NCBI GenBank assembly: GCA_016195025.1
Contig: JACQAL010000019.1
Span: 1-58,627, forward strand
Source: Bacteroidota bacterium
Lineage (GTDB): Bacteria; Bacteroidota; Bacteroidia; Palsa-948
Reading direction: 5' to 3'
Length of the DNA: 58,627 bases
In this document: positions 3,547 to 58,627 of the stretch, in pieces
How the letters are laid out: the number at the start of each line of letters is the position of its first letter
Position numbering within the stretch: the first letter of the stretch is position 1
The notes under the pieces: generated by a model
What the model saw: the letters and a program-made list of their open reading frames with translations, nothing else
What the model was told of the DNA's origin: nothing
Database searches by the model: none
Program-made: the position numbers and the translations under genes

Positions 3547-3694
3547 TTTGATAAAATAATGCAAATGCCGCGAACAAATGCGAACACCGCGAATTTTTAT
3601 TTGAATTTTGTTCGCGGTGTTCGCATACATTCGCATTGTTTGCATGATGTTACCCATAAAAACAGCTCATTATTATAGGTAGCAACTTGCGTTA
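3547..3694 (+). mobile_element. MITE-like palindromic element, copy 1
   Basis: Matches copy 2 (5038-5204) almost base for base, from TTTGATAAAATAATGCAAAT to the right terminal repeat TAGGTAGCAACTTGCGTTA. The left terminal repeat is replaced by unrelated sequence (3525-3546). Internally it holds a strong hairpin, GCGAACACCGCGAA facing TTCGCGGTGTTCGC, inside a longer imperfect palindrome. It begins about 20 nt after the stop codon of the gene at 2805. No coding capacity. Confidence 0.85.
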
Positions 3695-5037: not shown

Positions 5038-5204
5038 TAATGTAAGTTGCCACCTATTTGATAAAATAATGCAAATGCAGCGAACAAATGCGAACACCGC
5101 GAATTTTTATTTGAATTTTGTTCGCGGTGTTCGCATACATTCGCATTGTTTGCATGATGTTACCCATAAAAACAGCTCATTATTATAGGTAGCAACTTGC
5201 GTTA
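5038..5204 (+). mobile_element. MITE-like palindromic element, copy 2 (most complete)
   Basis: 167 bp with terminal inverted repeats TAATGTAAGTTGCCACCTAT (left) and the complement of TAACGCAAGTTGCTACCTAT (right), and a long internal hairpin. No ORF. It begins immediately after the stop codon of the preceding gene and ends 18 nt before the next ATG, where TATCTTCG could serve as the -7 of the gene at 5223. Confidence 0.9.
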
Positions 5205-42562: not shown

Positions 42563-42603
42563 GGCACCACGAAAATAAAATAAATACAAACAGGTACGAC
42601 TAC

Positions 42604-42751
42604 TAATGTAAATTGCCACCTATTTGATAAAATAATGCAAATGCCGCGAACCTGCCTGACCGGCAGGCAGGCAAATGCGAACACCGCGAATTTTTATTTG
42701 AATTTGTTACCCATAAAAACAGCTCATTATTATAGGCAGCAACTTGCGTTA
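42604..42751 (-). mobile_element. MITE-like palindromic element, copy 3 (nested insertion, internal deletion)
   Basis: Keeps both ends (TAATGTAAATTGCCACCTAT left; GCAACTTGCGTTA right). It carries a 21-bp insert at 42651-42671 with the dyad CTGCCTGACCGGCAGGCAG and lacks about 39 bp of the right hairpin arm. The right end touches the stop codon of the OmpA gene (minus strand). Strand label is relative to the adjacent gene; sequence orientation matches copies 1 and 2. Confidence 0.88.
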
Positions 42752-47028: not shown

Positions 47029-47284
47029 CGAAAATGGGACAAGGGACATGGGGCAAGCGGCAAGGGAAATTCACCTGTCCCCTGTCCTCTGTCCCCTGTC
47101 CCTCCGTTCGGAAACCTGATTTGTTTCAGTATACATTAACAGTATTGAATATTGGCTTAACAGTATTGAATATTGGCTTATACTGAAAGTAGTCATGTTT
47201 CCGAAAATGGGACATGGGACATGGGGCAAGTGGCAAGGGAAATTCACCCGTCCCCTGTCCTTTGTCCCCTGTCCCACCGTTCGC
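47029..47284. repeat. Two direct copies of a ~85-bp hairpin element
   Basis: 47029-47113 and 47200-47284 are close copies: CCGAAAATGGGACA..., GGACATGGGGCAAG, GGCAAGGGAAATTCACC, then GTCCCCTGTCC/TTGTCCCCTGTCCC arms complementary to the first part. Between them lie two TGGCTTAACAGTATTGAATAT units (21 bp) related to the downstream satellite. Confidence 0.8.
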
Positions 47285-47320
47285 AAAGCCGAGTTGTTTT
47301 GGTATAACAGTATTGAATAT

Positions 47321-47530
47321 TGGCTTAACGAAACTCAGTTATGGCTTAATGAAACTCAGTTATGTCTTAACAGAACTCAGTTATTTCTTAACAGAACTCA
47401 GTTATGGCTTAACAGAACTCAGTTATGGCTTAACGAAACTCAGTTATGGCTTAATGAAACTCAGTTATGGCTTAACAGAACTCAGTTATGTCTTAACAGA
47501 ACTCAGTTATGTCTTAACAGAACTCAGTTA
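47321..47530 (+). repeat. 21-bp satellite, ten tandem units
   Basis: Ten units of TGGCTTAAC(A/G)(G/A)AACTCAGTTA in perfect 21-nt register. Two of the three plus frames stay open (repeating WLNRTQL or GLTELSY); all minus frames are closed in each unit. Ends 9 nt before the stop of the gene at 47540. No convincing gene start. With MITE copy 4 and the hairpin pair it fills 46904-47539. Confidence 0.88.
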
Positions 47531-47539
47531 TGGCTCTTC

Positions 47540-48310
47540 TTATGGCACTACAAAGTATATAAAAGCCGTCCAGGTGTAAGGGTCATCGGTTTTATCGCTG
47601 AAAACATGATGGCTGGAGATTACGGCAGCGGAAGAAGTAGATTTGTCAGTTGTTTTTGAAGTATGATGCGTTTTTGAACTCTTGCCCTTCCGTGCGGTTC
47701 CTATACTGGTATGCCGGGCGGCAACGAGAGTTCCGCTGTCGAGGTCGCTGAAAATAACATCGGTTTGCGGGGTAAATCTTCTTTTAAGTTGGGCTGCAGT
47801 GGGAATTGTTTTGTTATTGGGAACAACGGCATAATCCCATCCATGCGCTTCGTTTTGTTTCGGATTCGCTTTTTTTGCATGCAGGTGAAGTGTGCCGGGT
47901 CCTGATTTGATTTGTCCGAAATCGGGTTTCTTGCCGGTGTTTTTGTTTTTAAGTTTTAACCCTATGCGGTGCACCACCGTGATGCCTGCGTCCACATCTC
48001 CTGCCGTTTTTGCCACCGCGCGCGCCACCCCCTGTCCGTAAGAGGCATTGAGGCGGTAGGTTTCATTTACAATCAGCCGCTGCTCATTTTCCTGCGCAGC
48101 CGTGGCGGTGGGCGGAATGGTTTGCCGCTTGTTGTGAATTGACATGAGCAAATCGGCTTGCGGATGCGCGGTGCCATCGGGCACGGGCGGGTTGGTGGCA
48201 TCGGGGTCGCCTGTGAATACAACGCCTTTTACTTCGCTCACCGCATCGGTAACCGTGAGGGATCCGATGTCGGTAATGACTACGATTTTGGGAAGGTTCT
48301 TTGCTGCCAT
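47540..48310 (-). CDS. Hypothetical protein adjacent to 21-bp satellite
   Basis: 256 aa, no signal peptide. KIVVITDIGSLTVTDAVSEV, GVVFTGDPDATNPPVPDGTA, RQTIPPTATAAQENEQRLIV, GPGTLHLHAKKANPKQNEAH, GWDYAVVPNNKTIPTAAQLK, Ser/Thr/Lys-rich stretch, end DPYTWTAFIYFVVP. The end resembles the last strands of FN3-like proteins such as 2805 (DAWYKARYKN) and remnant 7513. The upstream leader (repeated ATTAAGGATTA) is shared in type with 2805. Function unknown. Confidence 0.65.
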   Translation of the reverse strand: MAAKNLPKIVVITDIGSLTVTDAVSEVKGVVFTGDPDATNPPVPDGTAHPQADLLMSIHNKRQTIPPTATAAQENEQRLIVNETYRLNASYGQGVARAVAKTAGDVDAGITVVHRIGLKLKNKNTGKKPDFGQIKSGPGTLHLHAKKANPKQNEAHGWDYAVVPNNKTIPTAAQLKRRFTPQTDVIFSDLDSGTLVAARHTSIGTARKGKSSKTHHTSKTTDKSTSSAAVISSHHVFSDKTDDPYTWTAFIYFVVP

Positions 48311-48605: not shown

Positions 48606-48673
48606 TTCGGAAATAAAAATAAAACCTATTTTTGAGATTGGCTTGGCGCGCACGCCAAGAAATGAAATTTGTT

Positions 48674-48818
48674 GAAAACTCTTGCCGGCATGCAATGGCG
48701 CAAGGGGCGAATAAATAAGTAAGTTTGCTCTGAAGGAGCGGAGAGCCGAAGGATGCAGTGGCGGCAATCCTACTAATAATGGTGCGATTGGCGCATTGCG
48801 GCAAGCCGGAAGTTAACT
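48674..48818 (+). repeat. attC-like site 0 (left end of array)
   Basis: Imperfect palindrome: left arm ACTCTTGCCGGCATGCAATG (48678 on) pairs with CGCATTGCGGCAAGCCGGAAG before the core GTTAACT (48812-48818). The segment after the core (ACAACCGCCCAAATACAAAC) matches the start of the other cassettes. The centre holds TAAGTTTG (48720-48727), a TAnnTTTG motif. A second motif, TATCTTTA (48875-48882), precedes the gene at 48903. Confidence 0.6.
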
Positions 48819-48902
48819 ACAACCGCCCAAATACAAACAACATAGACAGTCTCGCAACGGTAGACAGCAACTCTTATCTTTACAGTTGAATAGAAACAGA
48901 CA

Positions 48903-50708
48903 ATGCAAAACATACATCTAACAAAATACCTTTTCATCGGACTAATAATTTTCTTTTCTCGTTTCATTTGCTTTGGACAAGACAATGATAAAATCAAAGC
49001 AACATTCATTTATAATTTCACAAAATATATAGATTGGCCTAATCAAAATGAATTAAAAGAATTTAGTATTGGATATTTAGGTAGCGGTTCATTCGCTGAA
49101 ACAAGTAAAGTATTGTTGTCAAATAAATTTTTTAATAATAACATACCTTACAAAATAAAATATTTCAATTCAATTCAGGATATAGAGCCTACTCAAATTT
49201 TATATGTTAATGGAGACGATGGGTTTGACCAAGATAAAATATTTAATAGTATAAAAGGAAAGGGAACTTTATTAGTCGCTGAAAATCTGGAATACTTCGA
49301 TAAATCAATGATTAACTTTATTATGACTAGTAATAACAAACAACGATTTTCATTGAATCAAAAAGTTGTCGAAGGTGAAGGATTTAAAATAAACTCTACT
49401 TTACTTTCCTTGGCGATATTAGATGGAACAGGATGGAAAGATGTTTTTTCAAAATTTCGCGAGTTATTAAAAAGTGAGAAAACAAGAGTAGAAGTAAGTA
49501 AAAAAGATTTAGAAAAAATATTAAATACCTATGACACTCAAAATAAAAAAATAGAAGAACAAAGTATTGAAAAAACAAAAACATTGAACGATATTGAGAA
49601 ACTGAATACTGAGAAAACAAAAACACTTGAAGAAATTGAAAAAATGAGTTTTCAAGCACAAGCAAAAGAATTAAAAATAAAAACACAATTGAATGAAATT
49701 ACAAATAACAAACTTGAAGCAGAAAATAAAAGACAAGAAAACGAATTATTAAAAAAGGAAAAAGAAATACAGGAGGGGGAAAATAAAAAACAAAAAATAA
49801 TTATTGCATCAGTTATCGGTGGCTTACTCGTAGTAATTTTATTTTCTGTATTTGTTTTTCGTTCTTTATACATTACGCGAAAGCAAAAAAGAATTATTGA
49901 ATTACAAAAAACAGAAGTGGAAAAATCAAAATATATTATTGAAGAAAAAAATAAAGAAATAACAGACAGTATCACTTATGCAAAAAGAATTCAACAAGCC
50001 AAACTTCCAGACAGAAAAGATATTTTTTCAGCATTCCCGAATTCATTTGTTCTTTACAAACCAAAAGATATTGTAAGCGGTGATTTTTATTTCTTCCATA
50101 AAAACGAGCAGATAGTTTTCATTGCCTCGGCTGACTGTACAGGTCATGGAGTTCCTGGTGCATTTATGAGTATGATAGGTTCTGAAAAATTAGATGACGC
50201 TTTGGCGCACAGCGCAGACACTTCTGAAATTCTTTCGCATCTAAATAAAGGCATAAAAGTTTCGCTTCACCAGACAGACAGCGATGAATCAACTCGTGAC
50301 GGAATGGACATCGCGCTTTGTTCAGTAGACACAGACGCGCGTGTTGTAAAATACGCTGGTGCAAACCGACCGCTTTGGATTATTCGCAACGGGCAGACAG
50401 TTGTTGAAGAAATTAAAGCAACTAAAAAAGCAATTGGGGGTTTCACAGAGGACAGTCAACACTTCGACACCCATGAAATAAAATTTGCTCAAGGTGACAC
50501 CTTTTATATATCAACTGACGGCTACGCAGACACTTTTGGAGGACAAGAACAAAAGAAAGTAACGACAAAAAGATTCAAAGAAATTTTACTTTCAATTCAG
50601 GACAAATCCTTAAAAGAACAAGAGCATTACCTCGACAACTTTATCGCAGATTGGAAAGGCGGGACAGAGCAAGTAGACGACATTTTAGTTATTGGTGTGC
50701 GCTTGTAG
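48903..50708 (+). CDS. YfiR-like (DUF4154) sensor - coiled coil - SpoIIE phosphatase
   Basis: 601 aa. Signal peptide, then YfiR/DUF4154 domain (~residues 25-175: IKATFIYNFTKYIDWPNQNE, LLVAENLEYFDKSMINFIMT, NSTLLSLA). Coiled coil (~190-295), one membrane helix (IIIASVIGGLLVVILFSVFV), a second coiled coil with linker SITYAKRIQQAKLPDRKDIF, and a SpoIIE domain (KPKDIVSGDFYFF, ADCTGHGVPGAFMSMIG, STDGYADTFGG). Periplasmic sensing to cytoplasmic Ser/Thr dephosphorylation is inferred. Sole gene of the first cassette-like unit. Confidence 0.88.
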   Translation: MQNIHLTKYLFIGLIIFFSRFICFGQDNDKIKATFIYNFTKYIDWPNQNELKEFSIGYLGSGSFAETSKVLLSNKFFNNNIPYKIKYFNSIQDIEPTQILYVNGDDGFDQDKIFNSIKGKGTLLVAENLEYFDKSMINFIMTSNNKQRFSLNQKVVEGEGFKINSTLLSLAILDGTGWKDVFSKFRELLKSEKTRVEVSKKDLEKILNTYDTQNKKIEEQSIEKTKTLNDIEKLNTEKTKTLEEIEKMSFQAQAKELKIKTQLNEITNNKLEAENKRQENELLKKEKEIQEGENKKQKIIIASVIGGLLVVILFSVFVFRSLYITRKQKRIIELQKTEVEKSKYIIEEKNKEITDSITYAKRIQQAKLPDRKDIFSAFPNSFVLYKPKDIVSGDFYFFHKNEQIVFIASADCTGHGVPGAFMSMIGSEKLDDALAHSADTSEILSHLNKGIKVSLHQTDSDESTRDGMDIALCSVDTDARVVKYAGANRPLWIIRNGQTVVEEIKATKKAIGGFTEDSQHFDTHEIKFAQGDTFYISTDGYADTFGGQEQKKVTTKRFKEILLSIQDKSLKEQEHYLDNFIADWKGGTEQVDDILVIGVRL

Positions 50709-50771
50709 TGGCGGACAGTTGCGCACTCGGTGGACAATTGCGCAAGAACAAAGCAGGACGTGGAGCGGATG

Positions 50772-50908
50772 TAGTTAACAGCAAATTTGCGCTATTGCCG
50801 CTTTCGTTCTTGTATTGAGTTTTGTTTTTCATATCTTTGTTTCGGTTTCGGCAGACAATTTTTCGCTTCGTAAGTCGGCAACATCGCAAATTTGCAAAAC
50901 GTTAGAGC
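50772..50908 (+). repeat. attC-like site 1
   Basis: TAGTTAACAGCAAATTTGCG (50772 on) faces CGCAAATTTGCAAAACGTTAG; GCTATTGCCG also faces CGGCAACATCG. The core is GTTAGAGC (50901-50908). The two arms have unequal spacers beside the core boxes, as in attC sites. The centre carries TATCTTTG (50832-50839), a -7 motif. No gene in 50709-51015. Confidence 0.65.
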
Positions 50909-51015
50909 CAATGCCCACAACTTCGGTGGACAATTTTGCAATTCGTACATTTGCCTTGACAATTTCTTGCAGACAATTTATTTCTCTTCTGACAACTAAC
51001 AAAAAATAAAAGCCA

Positions 51016-52668
51016 ATGAAAAAAGTTCTTCTCATCTCGACAGCAGTTTTTTTCTGCTTGACATTTGCGCGCGGTCAGACACCCAACTGGCAATGGGCGA
51101 AAAGCCCAAGTGGAAGTTTTGATCAATATATGTTGTATTCTGTTGCTGCCGATGCTAACGGTAATAGTTATTTAGTAGGTTCTTTTCAAAGTGACTCCGT
51201 CACTTTCGGTTCCATCACTCTTGCTAATGCCAATACGGGTTCTGCTGACATCTTTCTTGCCAAATATGATGCATCAGGAAATGTCCTTTGGGCAAAACGT
51301 GCAGGAGGAATTGGTAATGATGCGGGGTTTTCCGTTACTAACGATACCAGTGGAAATGTATACATCACGGGCTATTTCGCTAGCACCTCTATCACCTTTG
51401 GCTCTACTACTCTGCCTAATTCTGGTATTTTTATTGTCAAATACGATGCTTCGGGCAATGTGATCTGGGCGAAATGCAGGGACGGAGGTAGTCTTGCTTA
51501 TTCTGGCGGAAACAGCATTGTCATAAATGGGAACGGGGATGTGTATGTTACTGGCGGATTCAGTGCTTCCACTCTCACCTTTGGCAGCACTACTTTAATC
51601 AATGCAGGTTTGACGAATATTTTTATTGTCAAATATGATACTTTGGGCAATGTGCTCTGGGCGAAAAGTGCAGGCGGAATGGATACTGATGAGGGACTCA
51701 GCATTGCTACCGATGCAAACAGCAATGCCTATGTTACAGGATATTTCTATAGTTCCTCTTTCACTTTCGGCTCAACTACTTTGACCAATGTATATTATGG
51801 TCAAACCGATATTTTTATTGTTAAATACGATTCTTCAGGGAATGTAATATGGGCGAAAAGTGCAGGCGGAACTCAAGGTGATAGAGGAAACGGCATTGCC
51901 ACCGATGCGAGTGGTGATGTGTATGCTACGGGCATTGTTATTAGTGATTCCATCACTTTTGACTCAATTACTTTGTACAATTCAGGTGTTTTTGTTGTCA
52001 AATATGATCCTTCGGGCAATGTGCTTTGGGCAGAAGGATATGCAGGACTTGCAGGTGGTAGCGGTACCAGTATTGCCACTGATGCAAGCAGCAATGTGTA
52101 TGTTGCGGGCGCTTTCGGTTCTGATTCTATCGTTTTTGGCTCCACTACTTTGACTAATGCAGACCCATTTACCACAGTTGATATTTTTATTGCCAAATTC
52201 GATGCATTAGGAAATGCCCTTTGGGCAAAAAGCGCAGGAGGAAGTTCAAATGATGGAGCGACTTCCGTTACCAGCGATGTGAACGGCAATGTCTTTGTAG
52301 CTGGACTTTTTCAAAGTCCCACTCTCACCTTTGGCTCTACAACTTTGACCAGTTCGGGTGGTTGGGAAATTTTCCTTGCGAAATTAGGTTTGGTTACAGG
52401 AGTAAATGAATGGAGCAATAAAGAAAGTTTTTCTGTTTATCCCAACCCCTTTTCTTTCACAACAACTTTGCAGGTAGACAAATTTTTAAAAAGCGCAACC
52501 TTGACAGTTTACAATTCTTTAGGGCAGACAGTAAAACAAATAAAAAATATCAGCGGGCAGACAGTTACTTTCTCCCGTGACAATCTCGCAAGCGGACTGT
52601 ATTTCGTTCGGCTGACAGAAGAAAACAAAACCATCGCAGTAGACAAATTAGTAATCGCGGACAAATAA
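51016..52668 (+). CDS. SBBP beta-propeller repeat protein with T9SS sorting domain
   Basis: 550 aa. Signal peptide MKKVLLISTAVFFCLTFARG. About seven SBBP-type repeats (VLWAKRAGGIGNDAGFSVTN, DTSGNVYITGYFASTSITFG, STTL, IFIVKYDASGNVIWAK). C-terminal type A sorting domain (~residues 470-550: FSVYPNPFSFTTTLQV, LTVYNSLGQTVKQIKNISGQ, LASGLYFVRLTEENKTIAVD, KLVIADK). Secreted by T9SS and probably surface attached; adhesin or binding role. The post-stop sequence TTTTCTCGGCTCGACAGTTG recurs after 52952 and 57272. Confidence 0.9.
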   Translation: MKKVLLISTAVFFCLTFARGQTPNWQWAKSPSGSFDQYMLYSVAADANGNSYLVGSFQSDSVTFGSITLANANTGSADIFLAKYDASGNVLWAKRAGGIGNDAGFSVTNDTSGNVYITGYFASTSITFGSTTLPNSGIFIVKYDASGNVIWAKCRDGGSLAYSGGNSIVINGNGDVYVTGGFSASTLTFGSTTLINAGLTNIFIVKYDTLGNVLWAKSAGGMDTDEGLSIATDANSNAYVTGYFYSSSFTFGSTTLTNVYYGQTDIFIVKYDSSGNVIWAKSAGGTQGDRGNGIATDASGDVYATGIVISDSITFDSITLYNSGVFVVKYDPSGNVLWAEGYAGLAGGSGTSIATDASSNVYVAGAFGSDSIVFGSTTLTNADPFTTVDIFIAKFDALGNALWAKSAGGSSNDGATSVTSDVNGNVFVAGLFQSPTLTFGSTTLTSSGGWEIFLAKLGLVTGVNEWSNKESFSVYPNPFSFTTTLQVDKFLKSATLTVYNSLGQTVKQIKNISGQTVTFSRDNLASGLYFVRLTEENKTIAVDKLVIADK

Positions 52669-52746
52669 TTTTCTCGGCTCGACAGTTGCGCTCGACAGAC
52701 CGCTTCTCTCTCGGTGGACAACATCGCAAGATAAAAAATGCACTGT

Positions 52747-52878
52747 GGGTAACAGCAAGTTTGCGCTATGCGGGCTGACGTTTAAGTTTGAAAAATTGTA
52801 TCTTCGTTTTATGTTTGTAATGGCAGACAATTTTGTATTCCAAAAGCCCGCCCATCGCAAACTTGCGGAACGTTAGCA
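52747..52878 (+). repeat. attC-like site 2
   Basis: GGGTAACAGCAAGTTTGCGC (52747 on) faces CGCAAACTTGCGGAACGTTAG; ATGCGGGCT faces AGCCCGCCCAT. Core GTTAGCA at 52872-52878. Central -7-like TATCTTCG at 52799-52806. Cassette-start sequence CACCAACACCCAAACAAC follows. Confidence 0.65.
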
Positions 52879-52951
52879 CCAACACCCAAACAACAAAAAG
52901 ACAATGCAACCTTCGACAGCGATTTCGCATCTTGACGGCATAGCAAGTCCA

Positions 52952-54340
52952 ATGAAAAAACTTTATGCGGTTGGTTTAGTTTTATCATTTTCTTTTTTCA
53001 CTCATAATTCCTATGCCCAACTTATTGCTGCAGGGGGACTTCATTCTCTTATGCTTTGCACCGATTCGACCACGAGGGCTTGCGGACAAAACTTGTATGG
53101 GGAATTGGGTGATGGTACTACCACAAACAAATTAATTCCTGTGCAGGTCGGTGGGCTTACTGGCATTACGACTGTATCTGGTGGTTGGCGTCATTCTCTC
53201 TTTTTAAAAAATGATAGCACAGTTTGGGCTTGCGGATATAATAATTATGGTGAATTGGGGGATGGAACCATAATACAAAGAAACTTCTCTGTGATAGTGA
53301 GTGGGTTGATAGGAATTACGGCTGTGTCTGCGGGACAAAATTATTCACTTTTTTTGAAAAATGATGGCTCGGTCTGGGCTTGCGGGCAGAACTTGTACGG
53401 GGAATTGGGTGATGGTACTACAATAGATAAATGGACACCTGTGAAAGTGAGCGGGCTTGCAGGAATTACATCTATATCTGCTGGATACGAGCATTCTCTC
53501 TTTTTGAAAAATGATGGCACAGCTTGGGCTTGCGGGTATAACGGAGGAGGAGAATTGGGCGATGGAACTACCATTGACAAATGGACTCCAGTGCAAGTGA
53601 GTGGGCTGACGGGAATTATAGCCGTATCTGCAGGTTATGATCATTCCCTCTTTTTGAAAAATGATGGCACTGTTTGGGCTTGCGGATTAAATCTTGACGG
53701 GGAATTTGGTGATAGCACTATTTCAAACGGCTCAACTCCCATGCAGATAATATCACTGACAGAAATTACGGCTATTAGTGCGGGCAGTGGGTATTCCCTC
53801 TTTTTGAAAAATGATGGTACATCCTTAGCTTGTGGGGGTAATGGGACAGGAGAATTGGGCGATGGAACCATTATACAAAGAAAAACACCCGTGCAGGTAG
53901 TTGGGCTAACGGGAATTATAGCTGTGTCTGCGGGCTGGTTTCATTCCCTCTTTTTGAAAAATGATAGCACGGTTTTGGCTTGTGGATATAACGGGGATGG
54001 GGAATTGGGTGATGGCACTACTACACAAAGAAATAGTCCCGTGCAGGTAACTGGTTTATGTAGCGTTGCATCAGTAGAAGAGAATTTATTAAAAAATTTA
54101 ATTTCCATTTCCCCTAATCCCTTCTCCACCCAAACAACTTTGCATTCAGACAATCTTTTACACAACGCAACTCTCACGGTGGACAACTGTTTCGGGCAGA
54201 CAGTAAAACAAATTAAAAACATCAGCGGGCAGACAGTTACTTTCTCCCGCGACAATCTCGCAAGCGGACTGTATTTCGTTCGGCTGACAGAAGAAAATAA
54301 AATTATAGCGGTAGACAAATTAGTAATCACCGATAAATAA
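52952..54340 (+). CDS. RCC1-repeat protein with T9SS sorting domain
   Basis: 462 aa from MKKLYAVGLVLSFSFFTHNS; an in-frame ATG at 52904 would add 16 residues ahead of the signal peptide. Seven RCC1/BLIP-II-like repeats: NLYGELGDGTTTNKLIPVQV, GGLTGITTVSGGWRHSLFLK, NDSTVWACGYN. Sorting domain at the C-terminus (FSTQTTLHSDNLLHNATLTV, DNCFGQTVKQIKNISGQTVT, KLVITDK). Secreted propeller protein; ligand unknown. Stop codon is followed at once by a palindromic element. Confidence 0.9.
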   Translation: MKKLYAVGLVLSFSFFTHNSYAQLIAAGGLHSLMLCTDSTTRACGQNLYGELGDGTTTNKLIPVQVGGLTGITTVSGGWRHSLFLKNDSTVWACGYNNYGELGDGTIIQRNFSVIVSGLIGITAVSAGQNYSLFLKNDGSVWACGQNLYGELGDGTTIDKWTPVKVSGLAGITSISAGYEHSLFLKNDGTAWACGYNGGGELGDGTTIDKWTPVQVSGLTGIIAVSAGYDHSLFLKNDGTVWACGLNLDGEFGDSTISNGSTPMQIISLTEITAISAGSGYSLFLKNDGTSLACGGNGTGELGDGTIIQRKTPVQVVGLTGIIAVSAGWFHSLFLKNDSTVLACGYNGDGELGDGTTTQRNSPVQVTGLCSVASVEENLLKNLISISPNPFSTQTTLHSDNLLHNATLTVDNCFGQTVKQIKNISGQTVTFSRDNLASGLYFVRLTEENKIIAVDKLVITDK

Positions 54341-54427
54341 CTCTCCCCTCTTTCCCCTCTCTACCAAGTAGAGAGGGGAAAGAGGGGTGAGTCCTGTGAC
54401 AAACAAATTAATAATCACCGACAAATA
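54341..54427 (+). repeat. Palindromic element after T9SS stop, followed by a second sorting-domain tail
   Basis: CTCTCTACCAAGTAGAGAGG core within CCCCTCTTTCCCC/GGGGAAAGAGGGG arms (54343-54388), same family as 7664-7720 and 8813-8863. Right of it AACAAATTAATAATCACCGA CAAATAA (54400-54427) reads NKLIITDK-stop, a duplicate of the KLVITDK tail just left of the element. Confidence 0.8.
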
Positions 54428-54551
54428 ATTTTCTCGGCTCGACAGTTGCTTTTGTTCCGACCGTTTTTATCGGGTGACAGTTTCGCACGGACAGAAAAGA
54501 AAAAATAAAACCCTACATTTACAAATTACAAAACAAATTAAACTTAAAACA

Positions 54552-54761
54552 ATGACACAAGAACAAGACAAACTTTCAAAAGGTTGGAAAATCTGGACAA
54601 TCTCTGGTATTGTAATTTTCGTTGCAGCAATTGCTTATTCAGCATACAGAACTTTCGGTCAGGACAGCGTTACAAGTGGCGACTATTCTCAACTGACAAT
54701 GATGGGAGTTTTGTTTATTGTAATGCTTGTAACATTGCGACCAGTATTTAAAAAGTGGTAG
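54552..54761 (+). CDS. Small two-TM membrane protein
   Basis: 69 aa: MTQEQDKLSKGWKIWTISGI VIFVAAIAYSA, then YSQLTMMGVLFIVMLVTLRP VFKKW. Two membrane helices with a short outside loop. Shares the third cassette-like unit with the RCC1 gene. Function unknown. Confidence 0.6.
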   Translation: MTQEQDKLSKGWKIWTISGIVIFVAAIAYSAYRTFGQDSVTSGDYSQLTMMGVLFIVMLVTLRPVFKKW

Positions 54762-54818
54762 CGGACAGACAAGTTTCTGCTCGCGGACAGTGACACTGGA
54801 CAAAAAAAGAAACACTAC

Positions 54819-54949
54819 TGCCAACAGCACCTTGCGGCAATGGCAGTTGACATTTAATTTGGAAGTTTCTGCTTTCTATTATCTTTGTAGCGGCTTGACA
54901 GTTTTGTAGCAGTAACACCGCCACTTCTCCAACCTGCAAACCGTTAGCA
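54819..54949 (+). repeat. attC-like site 3
   Basis: TGCCAACAGCACCTTGCGGC (54819 on) and the end CCACTTCTCCAACCTGCAAA CCGTTAGCA (54921-54949) form an imperfect dyad; TGCCAAC pairs with GTTAGCA and ATGGCAG with CCGCCAC. Central TATCTTTG at 54880-54887. The cassette-start sequence (ATAATGCCCAAATACAAAAA) closely matches that after site 0, including CAACGGTAGACAG and TATCTTTACAGT. Confidence 0.6.
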
Positions 54950-55026
54950 ATAATGCCCAAATACAAAAAGACAATGCAACGGTAGACAGTAAATTTGTAT
55001 CTTTACAGTAACTAATTCAAAAGACA

Positions 55027-56457
55027 ATGAAAAAACTTTTACTCATCATATCAGTAATGGTTTGCGTATTTGCAAACGCACAATATACCAAGCTCCTTGA
55101 TTTTACAGGTCTTGCAAACGGAGGTCGTCCTCACGGGTCTCTTATTTCTGACGGAACTTTTCTGTATGGAATGACACAGCAGGGCGGTGCAAGCTTTTTT
55201 TATGGAACCATCTTTAAAATAAAGGCAGATGGAACTGGCTATTTCAAACTATTAGATTTTGCAAACGATACTGTACACGGTATTTATCCTAATGGCTCTC
55301 TTGTTTCTGACGGAGTATCTCTTTATGGAATGACATCTCAAGGCGGGATAGGCAATTGTAGTACAGGTTGCGGAACCATCTTTAAAATAAAGCCAGATGG
55401 AACCGGGTATTCCAAACTTCTTGATTTTACAGGCGCAAATGGAAGCCAGCCCGATGGCGACCTTATTTATGACGGAGCCTTCCTGTATGGAATGACACAG
55501 GTTGGCGGCACAAACAATTTTGGAACAATCTTTAAAATAAAACCCGATGGAACGGGGTATTCCAAACTACTTGATTTCACGGGTGCAAATGGAAGTACTC
55601 CTTGGGGCTCTCTCATTTCTGACGGAACATTCTTGTACGGAATGACACAGGTTGGTGGCGCAAATAATTGGGGAACAATTTTTAAAATAAAACCCGATGG
55701 AACCGGAGATACAACATTGTTGAATTTCTCTGGCTTGGCAAATGGAAGTGACCCTCTTGGTTCTCTTATTTTTGACGGAACTTTTCTTTATGGAATGACA
55801 AAAAGTGGCGGCACAAACAATTCTGGAACCATCTTTAAAATAAAACCCGATGGAACAGGGTATTCCAAACTACTTGATTTCACAGGCGCTGCAAACGGAG
55901 ACACTCCTTTTGGCTCTCTTATTTCTGACGGCACATTTCTGTATGGAGTGACATATATTGGCGGCACAAACAATTTTGGAACAATTTTTAAAATAAAACC
56001 CGATGGAACTGGGTATTCTAAACTATTAGATTTTACAAACGATACTGTACACGGAATTAATCCTACTGGCTCTCTTATTTCTGACGGCACATTTCTGTAT
56101 GGAACGACAATTCAGGGTGGAACAAACAATAACGGGACAATTTTTAAATTAGGAATTGAGACTGGCGTAACGGAGAACAATGTGGAAATTGATTTTACAA
56201 TTTTCCCAAATCCATTTTCTTCCCAGACAACTTTACGGATAGACAATTCATTCCACAACGCAACTCTCACGGTTTACAATTCTTTCGGGCAGACAGTAAA
56301 ACAAATAAAAAATATCAGCGGGCAGACAGTTGTTCTCTCCCGTGACAATCTCGCAAGCGGACTGTATTTCGTTCGGCTGACAGAAGAAAACAAAACCACT
56401 CATCTTGACAGCGGTTCTCGCGCTGACAGTTGCGCATGGACAGTATCCAACCTTTGA
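55027..56457 (+). CDS. GloVer-type repeat protein with damaged T9SS domain
   Basis: 476 aa. Signal peptide MKKLLLIISVMVCVFANAQ. About eight repeats of 'LLDFTGxANGxxPxGSLISDGTFLYGMTxxGG.. and GTIFKIKPDGTGYSK' (choice-of-anchor GloVer family). A T9SS domain begins normally (FPNPFSSQTTLRIDNSFHNA, LASGLYFVRLTEENKT), but the last strand and KLVITDK tail are replaced by HLDSGSRADSCAWTVSNL, which is the signal-peptide DNA of the next gene read out of frame. Sorting may therefore fail. Confidence 0.85.
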   Translation: MKKLLLIISVMVCVFANAQYTKLLDFTGLANGGRPHGSLISDGTFLYGMTQQGGASFFYGTIFKIKADGTGYFKLLDFANDTVHGIYPNGSLVSDGVSLYGMTSQGGIGNCSTGCGTIFKIKPDGTGYSKLLDFTGANGSQPDGDLIYDGAFLYGMTQVGGTNNFGTIFKIKPDGTGYSKLLDFTGANGSTPWGSLISDGTFLYGMTQVGGANNWGTIFKIKPDGTGDTTLLNFSGLANGSDPLGSLIFDGTFLYGMTKSGGTNNSGTIFKIKPDGTGYSKLLDFTGAANGDTPFGSLISDGTFLYGVTYIGGTNNFGTIFKIKPDGTGYSKLLDFTNDTVHGINPTGSLISDGTFLYGTTIQGGTNNNGTIFKLGIETGVTENNVEIDFTIFPNPFSSQTTLRIDNSFHNATLTVYNSFGQTVKQIKNISGQTVVLSRDNLASGLYFVRLTEENKTTHLDSGSRADSCAWTVSNL

Positions 56458-57265
56458 CATTACAACTGGTGCTTCGGGGACAACGACAACTGTTCCTCAA
56501 AGTTTTAATGAAACAAGAGGAGTTGATATAACAGTTCTTCAACCTGTGTTGATTCAATCAATCATATTACATAGGTTTTGCACCGGAACAGTTAATGATT
56601 CCGGGTTTGTTGGATTAAGAATATATGACAGTGGAACACAAGCATTATTATTCTCGCGTGACAGCGTTATAAGTCCTATGTATGACAGCGCAATTAGTTT
56701 TTCCGCATTGTTTATTAATACTTGGCAGACTGGACAATCCTTTCGTGTAAGTTTTTCCTGCTATGGTTATGGCAACAGCAATACAAGTGGCAGTGGATAT
56801 ATGTTTCAACCGACAACATTTCCTTACAATGGCAACAATGGCTTTGTTCAAATTAATCAAGCATATGACGGTGCTCTAAATACATTTCCAAACAATACAA
56901 ATATATTTGTCCCTTTTATAAGTTTTGAATATAATCCTTGGGTAAATGTTAATGAGATTGAAAATAATTCCACACTTAGCATTTCCCCTAATCCTTTCTG
57001 CTCGCAGACAGTTTTACAAACAGACAATCTTTTACACAACGCAACTCTCACGGTGGACAATTGTTTCGGGCAGACAGTTGCGCAAATAAAAAACATCAGC
57101 GGGCAGACAGTTACTTTCTCCCGCGACAATCTCGCAAGCGGACTGTATTTCGTTCGGCTGACAGAGCTGCGCTCGCAACCTACGGTTGTCTCTCCCAGCG
57201 GGGGAGGGACAGAGGGTGGGGGCAGTGAGGTTTTCACAGGCAAATTAGTAATCACCGATAAATAA
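56405..57265 (+). CDS. T9SS-sorted secreted protein lacking its ATG start
   Basis: 286 aa counted from a TTG at 56405, in LTAVLALTVAHGQ. Sister gene 57272 begins MKKFFLASTAVLALTVAHGQ, so the first ~5 codons are missing. Body: beta-rich (TFDITTGASGTTTTVPQSFN, ETRGVDITVLQPVLIQSIIL, SFRVSFSCYGYGNSNTSGSG). Sorting domain FCSQTVLQTDNLLHNATLTV ... KLVITDK, interrupted before the last strand by an in-frame palindrome-rich insert (57167-57232; VSPSGGGTEGGGSE). Expression would need a TTG start, read-through or coupling with 55027. Confidence 0.7.
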   Translation: MTAVLALTVAHGQYPTFDITTGASGTTTTVPQSFNETRGVDITVLQPVLIQSIILHRFCTGTVNDSGFVGLRIYDSGTQALLFSRDSVISPMYDSAISFSALFINTWQTGQSFRVSFSCYGYGNSNTSGSGYMFQPTTFPYNGNNGFVQINQAYDGALNTFPNNTNIFVPFISFEYNPWVNVNEIENNSTLSISPNPFCSQTVLQTDNLLHNATLTVDNCFGQTVAQIKNISGQTVTFSRDNLASGLYFVRLTELRSQPTVVSPSGGGTEGGGSEVFTGKLVITDK

Positions 57266-57271
57266 ACAGCA

Positions 57272-58480
57272 ATGAAAAAGTTTTTCCTCGCCTCGACAGC
57301 AGTTCTCGCATTGACAGTTGCGCACGGACAGACATATCCGATATTCGGAAACGAAATACCTGTGACCATTAATGGATTAACCTTTAGCGTACAAGACCCT
57401 TTTATTTCTCCTGACGGAAACACACTGATATTTAATCATGACAACAACTTACCTAATGTAAAATTATATTATGCAAGCAAAATAAACGATTCAACTTTTA
57501 ATTTTATAGGAGAAATTGCTGGCGCTAATCAAACTACACCTAATGCAACTAATCTGTCTTCGTGCTTGGATTCAGCCAATAATCTTTTCTGGACTTCATT
57601 AAGAAATTATAATCCGCCAACATCGTATGAAAATCTTATGCACGCAAAATACACTTCGGGAAGTGCAACAAATTTGACAAAGGTGTATGGAAATATTTAT
57701 GTTCAAATTCCGTATTGGGTAATTATGGACGCTGAAATAAGTTATGATGGGAATTATTTATATTATACCAATACTTATTTCGGTCCAAACGGAAATGACT
57801 GTAATGCTCCCTGCTATTCTCAGCTCAACATTGCACAGAAAGTGAATGATACAACTTTTAGCAAACTTTCCAACTCTAATGCAATTCTTACAAATGTCAA
57901 CGATACTAATTATCTTGTTTATGTTCCGCAAATAACTAAAGACGGACTTGAACTGTATTTTACAAGAGTATTGAAAAATCCACCCAATCCTAACACTGAG
58001 ATTTGTGTTTCGGTAAGAAATACTGTTAGTGATACATTCAGTTTGCCGTCTGTAATATATTCAAATTATGGTTGGTTGCCCGAAGCCCCATCTTTAACAA
58101 CCAACAAAGGCATATTGTATTATCATAAACAATCAGCATATAGTAGTGGCTTTTTCAAAATTTATATGCGGTATCGAACAGGGACAACAGATATAAGCGA
58201 GACAACTAATAATGAGTTTATTTCTGTATTCCCAAATCCCTTTTCAACACAGACAACTTTGCAAACAAATAATCTCTTACACAACGCAACTCTCACGGTG
58301 GACAACTGTTTCGGGCAGACAGTTGCGCAAATAAAAAACATCAGCGGTCAGACAGTTACTTTCCCCCGCGACAATCTTCCAAGCGGACTGTATTTCGTTC
58401 GGCTGACAACCCCCTCTCTTGTTTTAGGAGAGGGCGGGGGTGAGGTTTTCACAGGCAAATTAGTAATCACCGACAAATAA
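57272..58480 (+). CDS. PD40/TolB-like repeat protein with T9SS sorting domain
   Basis: 402 aa. Signal peptide MKKFFLASTAVLALTVAHGQ. WD/PD40-like motifs: FSVQDPFISPDGNTLIFNHD, SYDGNYLYYTNTYFGPNGND, PQITKDGLELYFTRVLKN. T9SS domain FPNPFSTQTTLQTNNLLHNA ... SGLYFVRL, then an in-frame insert TTPSLVLGEGGGE encoded by a CCCCCTCTC/GAGAGGGCGGGG palindrome (58408-58446), then VFTGKLVITDK. Starts 6 nt after the stop of 56405. Confidence 0.85.
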   Translation: MKKFFLASTAVLALTVAHGQTYPIFGNEIPVTINGLTFSVQDPFISPDGNTLIFNHDNNLPNVKLYYASKINDSTFNFIGEIAGANQTTPNATNLSSCLDSANNLFWTSLRNYNPPTSYENLMHAKYTSGSATNLTKVYGNIYVQIPYWVIMDAEISYDGNYLYYTNTYFGPNGNDCNAPCYSQLNIAQKVNDTTFSKLSNSNAILTNVNDTNYLVYVPQITKDGLELYFTRVLKNPPNPNTEICVSVRNTVSDTFSLPSVIYSNYGWLPEAPSLTTNKGILYYHKQSAYSSGFFKIYMRYRTGTTDISETTNNEFISVFPNPFSTQTTLQTNNLLHNATLTVDNCFGQTVAQIKNISGQTVTFPRDNLPSGLYFVRLTTPSLVLGEGGGEVFTGKLVITDK

Positions 58481-58569
58481 TTTTTTCGGCTTGACAGTTG
58501 TGTTCGGTAGACCAGACAAACTATTCTTAACTTTGAAAACAACAAAAAGTAACTAATCAAATAAAACTC

Positions 58570-58627
58570 ATGGAACTGATCCGAAAAAAAATCTTAAAAG
58601 TTCATGGTACAATTGCCGTGGCAGCCG
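58570..58627 (+). CDS. Partial CDS at window end
   Basis: ATG at 58570 opens a frame (MELIRKKILKVHGTIAVAA) that runs off the end. It follows the T9SS gene by ~90 nt without an attC-like site. Too short to assign. Confidence 0.35.
   Translation, partial: MELIRKKILKVHGTIAVAA

Follow-up and report, generated by a model that had tools for sequence, protein, structure and literature searches.

Downstream of position 48,812 of a Bacteroidia contig, a run of genes separated by palindromes raises the question of whether these genes form a cassette array and, if so, which recombinase would move them. The window, i.e. the whole stretch of DNA that was analysed, is the entire contig C19 (58,627 b), one of the 79 MAG contigs of a 3.5-Mb genome whose placement in the Bacteroidia was judged from its relatives. 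From 48,812 to the contig end the genes are co-oriented, and three of the palindromes (S2, S3 and S4) lie on one strand. The initial annotation had read this region as an integron-like cassette array with four attC-like palindromes, genes all pointing the same way and no visible integrase. That reading is supported, the uniform gene orientation was seen again, and the underlying observation was confirmed in part. The window contains the left end of a cassette array, and we are largely confident that it is explained by a widespread integron-like system of Bacteroidia whose integrase (PF13495 and PF00589) lacks the patch domain of IntI.

S2 (50773-50907), S3 (52747-52878) and S4 (54819-54949), all on the forward strand, are attC sites of one family and thereby predicted, from their sequence, to be sites of gene-cassette recombination. 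The covariance-model check proposed in the initial annotation gave strong matches, with E-values of 3.1e-22, 5.4e-27 and 1.5e-16 respectively for a leave-out model (R2) without window sequence. S1, the remaining palindrome, bounds the array on the left and had to be rejected as an attC site of this family, as it gave no match to the model with all filters off. The folded bottom strands of S2 and S3 display a TAAC/GTTA stem, a one-sided 4-nt spacer, a stem of 10-11 bp that includes one extra base, and a further stem. A search of the window's own genome with a right-arm pattern, allowing up to three mismatches, returned 24 forward and 5 reverse matches (0 and 4 for the reversed control), mostly on a handful of contigs other than the window's. 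The attC covariance model, built from 26 sites, detected 56 full-length sites at E < 1e-16 in the 3.5-Mb genome, nearly all of them in arrays on other contigs; the sites are grouped and not dispersed singly. An alignment of the sites showed 95.2% of cells paired (26-44% in slid controls) and 84 double-change cells compared with 27.7 after shuffling, counts that are somewhat favoured because the structure was derived from the same sequences. A G-T pair on the bottom strand, equivalent to C-A on the top strand (alignment columns 10/132), is invariant. The sites are imperfect palindromes of conserved structure with covarying stems, as is characteristic of attC.

Four cassettes are delimited on the forward strand of the window. 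Cassette 1 (48813-50901; 2.1 kb) carries a YfiR-SpoIIE sensor gene (48903-50708; Pfam DUF4154 and SpoIIE) and has homologues elsewhere in its own genome and in the same-genus genome G005. Cassette 2 (50902-52872) encodes a beta-propeller with a T9SS tail (51016-52668), and cassette 3 (52873-54943) an RCC1 propeller with a T9SS tail (52904-54340) together with a 69-aa ORF (54552-54761). The array continues past 54949 with cassette 4, which starts at 54944, contains three ORFs with T9SS tails (55027-56457, 56405-57265 and 57272-58480) and runs into the contig end at 58627. The earlier idea of an array of T9SS surface proteins holds for the T9SS-tailed propellers of the window, but a survey of cassette content found such tails in only 8 of 46 cassettes, so that T9SS shuffling accounts for part of the content and most cassettes do not encode T9SS-sorted proteins. 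In 9 of the 46 the longest ORF lies off the cassette strand. When an empty counterpart of the window locus was sought in the genus, six relatives showed no recognisable orthologous locus, and viral contigs searched with one DNA pattern gave no match. Two kinds of repeat lie elsewhere in the window: tandem 21-bp repeats (TAACAGAACTCAGTTATGGCT) at 47116-47577 make up a repetitive ORF (47195-47659), and a dispersed, MITE-like repeat of about 100 bp ending in GTTACCCATAAAAACAGCTC is present three times (about 3550-3690, 5060-5200 and 42600-42750).

Once a cassette has been excised as a circle, its opening bases are expected to pair with the left box of its attC site; in the array, the whole cassette separates the two. 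The left box was the exact complement of its own cassette start in 39 of 44 consecutive pairs scored automatically (40 of 44 with one mis-picked core corrected by eye), compared with 7.2 in shuffled pairings (maximum 14 in 5000 shuffles) and 7 for the right end of the same site. The matches frequently extend to 9-10 bp, and the same complementarity was found for 30 of 31 pairs in relatives and for 19 of 24 internal pairs at integrase loci of public genomes. The units are hence bounded by G/TTR, each with a left box that complements its own beginning, in keeping with gene cassettes. As for the complementary R and L boxes described initially, such boxes do exist, but the partner of a left box is the beginning of its own cassette and not the right end of the site it belongs to. 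Within the window, the start of cassette 1, GTTAACTACA (48812), and the left box of S2, TGTAGTTAAC, are complementary at 10 of 10 positions. Two of the three complete cassettes of the window break the rule: cassettes 2 and 3 have non-complementary ends (3/7 and 4/7 matches) and appear to have lost an internal boundary. Inside cassette 3, at 54340-54392, lies a REP-like, near-perfect 25-nt palindrome (ACTCTCCCCTCTTTCCCCTCTCTAC), which possibly marks the place of such a loss.

Comparison between genomes supported the cassette boundaries at G/TTA, since whole-cassette homology begins and stops at the G/TTR cores. Homologous cassettes of the window's own genome and of G005 align from about 30 bp ahead of a core until about 10 bp beyond the following one; for the cassette at C23 15963-16611 the alignment with G005 spans -30 to +6 of the cores. 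Two unusually long cassettes of the window's genome (G000), C55 11943-21947 (10.0 kb) and C59 5768-14867 (9.1 kb), have intact complementary ends, while most of their interior is poor in the word GACA, as might result from gene insertion into short cassettes. The palindromes could in principle be dispersed structured repeats (REP- or MITE-like, or RNA elements) instead of recombination sites, as their many copies are alike in sequence and structure and contain a promoter-like element. We regard this as extremely unlikely, because repeats would not be expected to show box complementarity across units of 0.4-10 kb in 40 of 44 pairs, because the arrays keep one orientation and because a search of Rfam gave no match to the palindromes in the window. 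Complementarity across units of up to 10 kb is expected only of units that circularise.

S1 (forward strand, 48670-48811, the palindrome reaching to about 48813) is a weak palindrome that ends in GGCAAGCCGGAA/GTTA and forms the junction at which cassette 1 starts. Exactly two copies of the 15-mer GCAAGCCGGAAGTTA are present in the genome, at C19:48801 and C58:27503, and both mark the left end of a cassette. With low confidence, we consider these two starts to be secondary insertion sites or remnants; S1 itself may be an attI-like or a secondary insertion site. It does not resemble the attI of relatives. As a class-wide attI, GCAAGCCGGAAGTTA was rejected, for its exact matches outside its own genome resemble coding sequence and are not followed by a cassette end.

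A search for IntI in the window's own genome revealed none, in line with the initial annotation. Five tyrosine recombinases were found there, none of which belongs to the patch-less integrase family; a profile search for this family detected no member, and a search for integrase remnants in a subset of the contigs returned chance matches only. An attI adjoining an integrase gene was likewise not found in this genome. Without a detectable integrase copy in its genome the array is an orphan, and it was presumably mobilised in trans, or else its integrase has been lost or is missing from the assembly. The genome has at least two attC sites and no integrase, as in a CALIN, although contig gaps could hide an integrase. 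The integrase is present in the same-genus genomes G001, G003, G004 and G005. Since the window's genome yielded no simple tyrosine recombinases other than XerC/D-like proteins, the host XerC/XerD might move the cassettes as in dif-module systems. This is very improbable given that relatives have a dedicated recombinase at the array head and that the attC sites are 130-nt hairpins with a one-sided 4-nt bulge, unlike the short dif site.

The dedicated integrase was identified by tblastn with the 405-aa recombinase of one relative as query, which retrieved homologues near arrays in seven others. Its domains are Phage_int_SAM_4 (PF13495) and Phage_integrase (PF00589), preceded by an extra N-terminal stretch that folds, in a predicted model, into a beta-beta-alpha-beta-beta domain. 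TIGR02249 matches the protein in two pieces and below the cut-off. The closest solved fold is the integron integrase VchIntIA (PDB 2a3v; Foldseek E 2.3e-16), which has the same C-terminal SPL-x-x-L ending; compared with VchIntIA, the Bacteroidia integrase has the extra N-terminal domain and lacks about 40 residues of the integrase-specific insertion, and the profile skips chain residues 182-240, where the integron-specific insertion is located. The spacing from KGxKDR to HxLRH is 56-59 aa, whereas it is 100 in the only IntI-type sequence with both motifs recognisable; the linked integrase thus lacks the IntI patch domain. A quick tree placed the IntI-type sequences in one clade (SH-aLRT 100) with the patch-less integrases outside it; the Bacteroidia sequences were not resolved as one clade. 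The best curated NCBIfam model for most members tested is NF040815 ('site-specific tyrosine recombinase/integron integrase'), as for XerA-like recombinases. The XerA of archaea is of the dif type, whereas the Bacteroidia gene is linked to an attI-like site as well as to cassette arrays.

Two further integrase relatives were noted. Directly 3' of an attC site, the gene at L131:9730-11034 (G126:C1) resembles the integrase (NF040815 E 4e-33), but HxLRH is replaced by KVLKYSY and about 170 extra C-terminal residues have no Pfam match; it is probably a cassette-borne, dead integrase fusion. In a Spirochaetota MAG (JARKUF010000008.1; L277), and so outside Bacteroidota, an integrase relative is followed by a possible attI and, 97 bp downstream, a single cassette, a case that could reflect transfer, a binning error or chance.

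The start of the first cassette was located in relatives from the left box of the first attC site. It lies 107, 107, 90, 92, 204 and 2196 bp past the integrase stop in G052, G016, G049, G081, G135 and G100 respectively, 84-108 bp past it in six further genomes, and mostly 74-178 bp past it at loci of public genomes, where some distances were larger or unclear. The sequence before the core has the attI-like consensus CGnnTATAAACAA/GTTR across 23 loci, which were hand-picked for a located start and of which the G003 entry rests on a 17-base match. Relatives thus carry an attI-like site beside the integrase gene. As a genome-wide search pattern the consensus proved too loose, the reversed control giving more matches. 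When attI was sought de novo, independently of the attC model, the signal was weak (7 loci, compared with 4 of 456 controls), so that attC-anchored detection was used. Across 80 loci from a scan of public genomes, 42 of 44 attC matches were placed downstream of the integrase on its strand, and all of these matches fell in Bacteroidota records. Cultured hosts comprise Flavobacterium enshiense, F. aciduliphilum and Algoriphagus ornithinivorans; in F. enshiense DK69 nine attC model matches lie 3' of the integrase gene, which spans L269:7962-9029.

Among 149 sampled Bacteroidia genomes, the covariance model detected attC sites in 106, covering 77 of 99 genera. The integrase was found in 84 genomes (A6 profile, E <= 1e-60, a cut-off chosen to exclude Xer proteins, at which some matches may still be other subfamilies), and 78 of these had attC sites (Fisher p=1.7e-11, an optimistic value as the genomes are related). 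The remaining 28 attC-carrying genomes, the window's included, had no detectable integrase. A classical IntI (TIGR02249 above cut-off) was present in one of the 149, and IntI could therefore act in trans on attC sites. According to the corresponding alternative, the sites are ordinary attC sites moved only by the classical IntI of other bacteria and the linked recombinase is coincidental. Archaeal and phage attC sites, diverse in origin, are indeed substrates of IntI1 (PMC9668308, PMC9892861), and the window's genome has neither kind of integrase. Nevertheless, a single IntI-positive genome stands against attC sites in 106, and in many families the patch-less integrase lies directly 5' of the first cassette, with a conserved attI-like site and a single orientation, so that we think this alternative improbable.

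We infer that the linked integrase would be the catalyst, by a single-strand mechanism. Being close to IntI in sequence and fold, it would recognise the attC bottom strand folded as a hairpin and cut at G/TTR. A circular cassette would be excised, both of its ends rejoining as the 7-10 bp R stem, and would be inserted at the attI-like site just 3' of the integrase's own gene. Expression of the next cassette would then probably be driven by a promoter-like element in the attC loop.

Such elements match TAnnTTTG, the Bacteroidota -7 element. On the forward strand of the window, TATCTTTG lies in the loops of S2 (50832-50839) and S4 (54880-54887), facing cassettes 2 and 4 respectively, and the S3 loop contains TAAGTTTG (52783-52790) and TATCTTCG (52799-52806). 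TAnnTTTG was found on the cassette strand in 87% of the attC loops of the window's genome, on the other strand in 0% and in 9% of shuffles; the values for 52 non-redundant loops of relatives were 42%, 2% and 7%. A TTG at a fitting upstream distance was present in only part of the loops. Given that the loops share ancestry and are therefore non-independent, these figures are suggestive of a promoter function.

The array is also enriched in GACA on one strand: from 48812 to 58627, forward-strand GACA occurs 13.6 times per kb and TGTC 1.4 times, whereas elsewhere in the window the two words occur 2.4 and 2.3 times per kb. Cassette-strand GACA reaches 39 per kb in the 100 bp next to a cassette end and is down to about 3 at a distance of 800-1200 bp, with TGTC near 1-2.6, and the enrichment around attC decays over about 400 bp. 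Enrichment centred on attC was observed in the window array and on contigs C55, C35, C59, C10 and C66. Cassettes longer than 4 kb show a similar decay, and the GACA count per cassette is far less variable than cassette length. The enrichment is weaker in relatives and was not seen in four IntI-type loci, whose array parts were undelimited. A coding artefact is unlikely, as GACA is densest in ORF-less cassettes and peaks in noncoding ends. Neutral drift is likewise unlikely, since GACA was conserved at 86% in diverged homologous cassettes compared with 64% for all 4-mers, although these pairs are non-independent. Candidate roles are the loading of a strand-specific protein that aids bottom-strand folding, or a self-mark of cassettes. 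A more far-reaching proposal, to which we give somewhat less than even chances, is that Bacteroidia have an integron class of their own, in which a patch-free integrase acts on folded attC sites that double as promoters, and the oriented GACA word is part of the recombination or cassette-recognition machinery.

Sedentary chromosomal integrons of the Vibrio type, with IntI, likewise have tandem co-oriented cassettes, some without ORFs, attC hairpins with R and L boxes and a G/TTR core, and an attI at the array head beside an integrase of the same superfamily. The Bacteroidia arrays differ from them in an integrase without the IntI patch domain (56-59 aa versus 100) and with an extra N-terminal domain, in its gene lying on the cassette strand, in attC sites with a 9-10 bp R stem, a one-sided 4-nt spacer and a promoter-like loop element, and in GACA enrichment and cassettes of up to 10 kb. 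The window array, having attC sites and no recognised IntI, would be filed as a CALIN, whereas the arrays of relatives have a linked integrase from another family. Both the definition of integrons and the searches for them rest on the extra domain specific to IntI (PMC9024848, PMC2426708), which is described as essential for integron function (PMC8138268). An integrase without this domain may explain why the system has gone unreported; the open-licence literature revealed no report of a patch-less integrase paired with attC sites. If this reading is true, a class-wide branch without the IntI domain would alter the number and distribution of integrons, would account for Bacteroidia attC clusters seemingly without an integrase, and would offer an independent way to test the recognition of folded single-strand sites. 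Cultured hosts render the system testable, and the GACA gradient around attC is a strong and simple signal.
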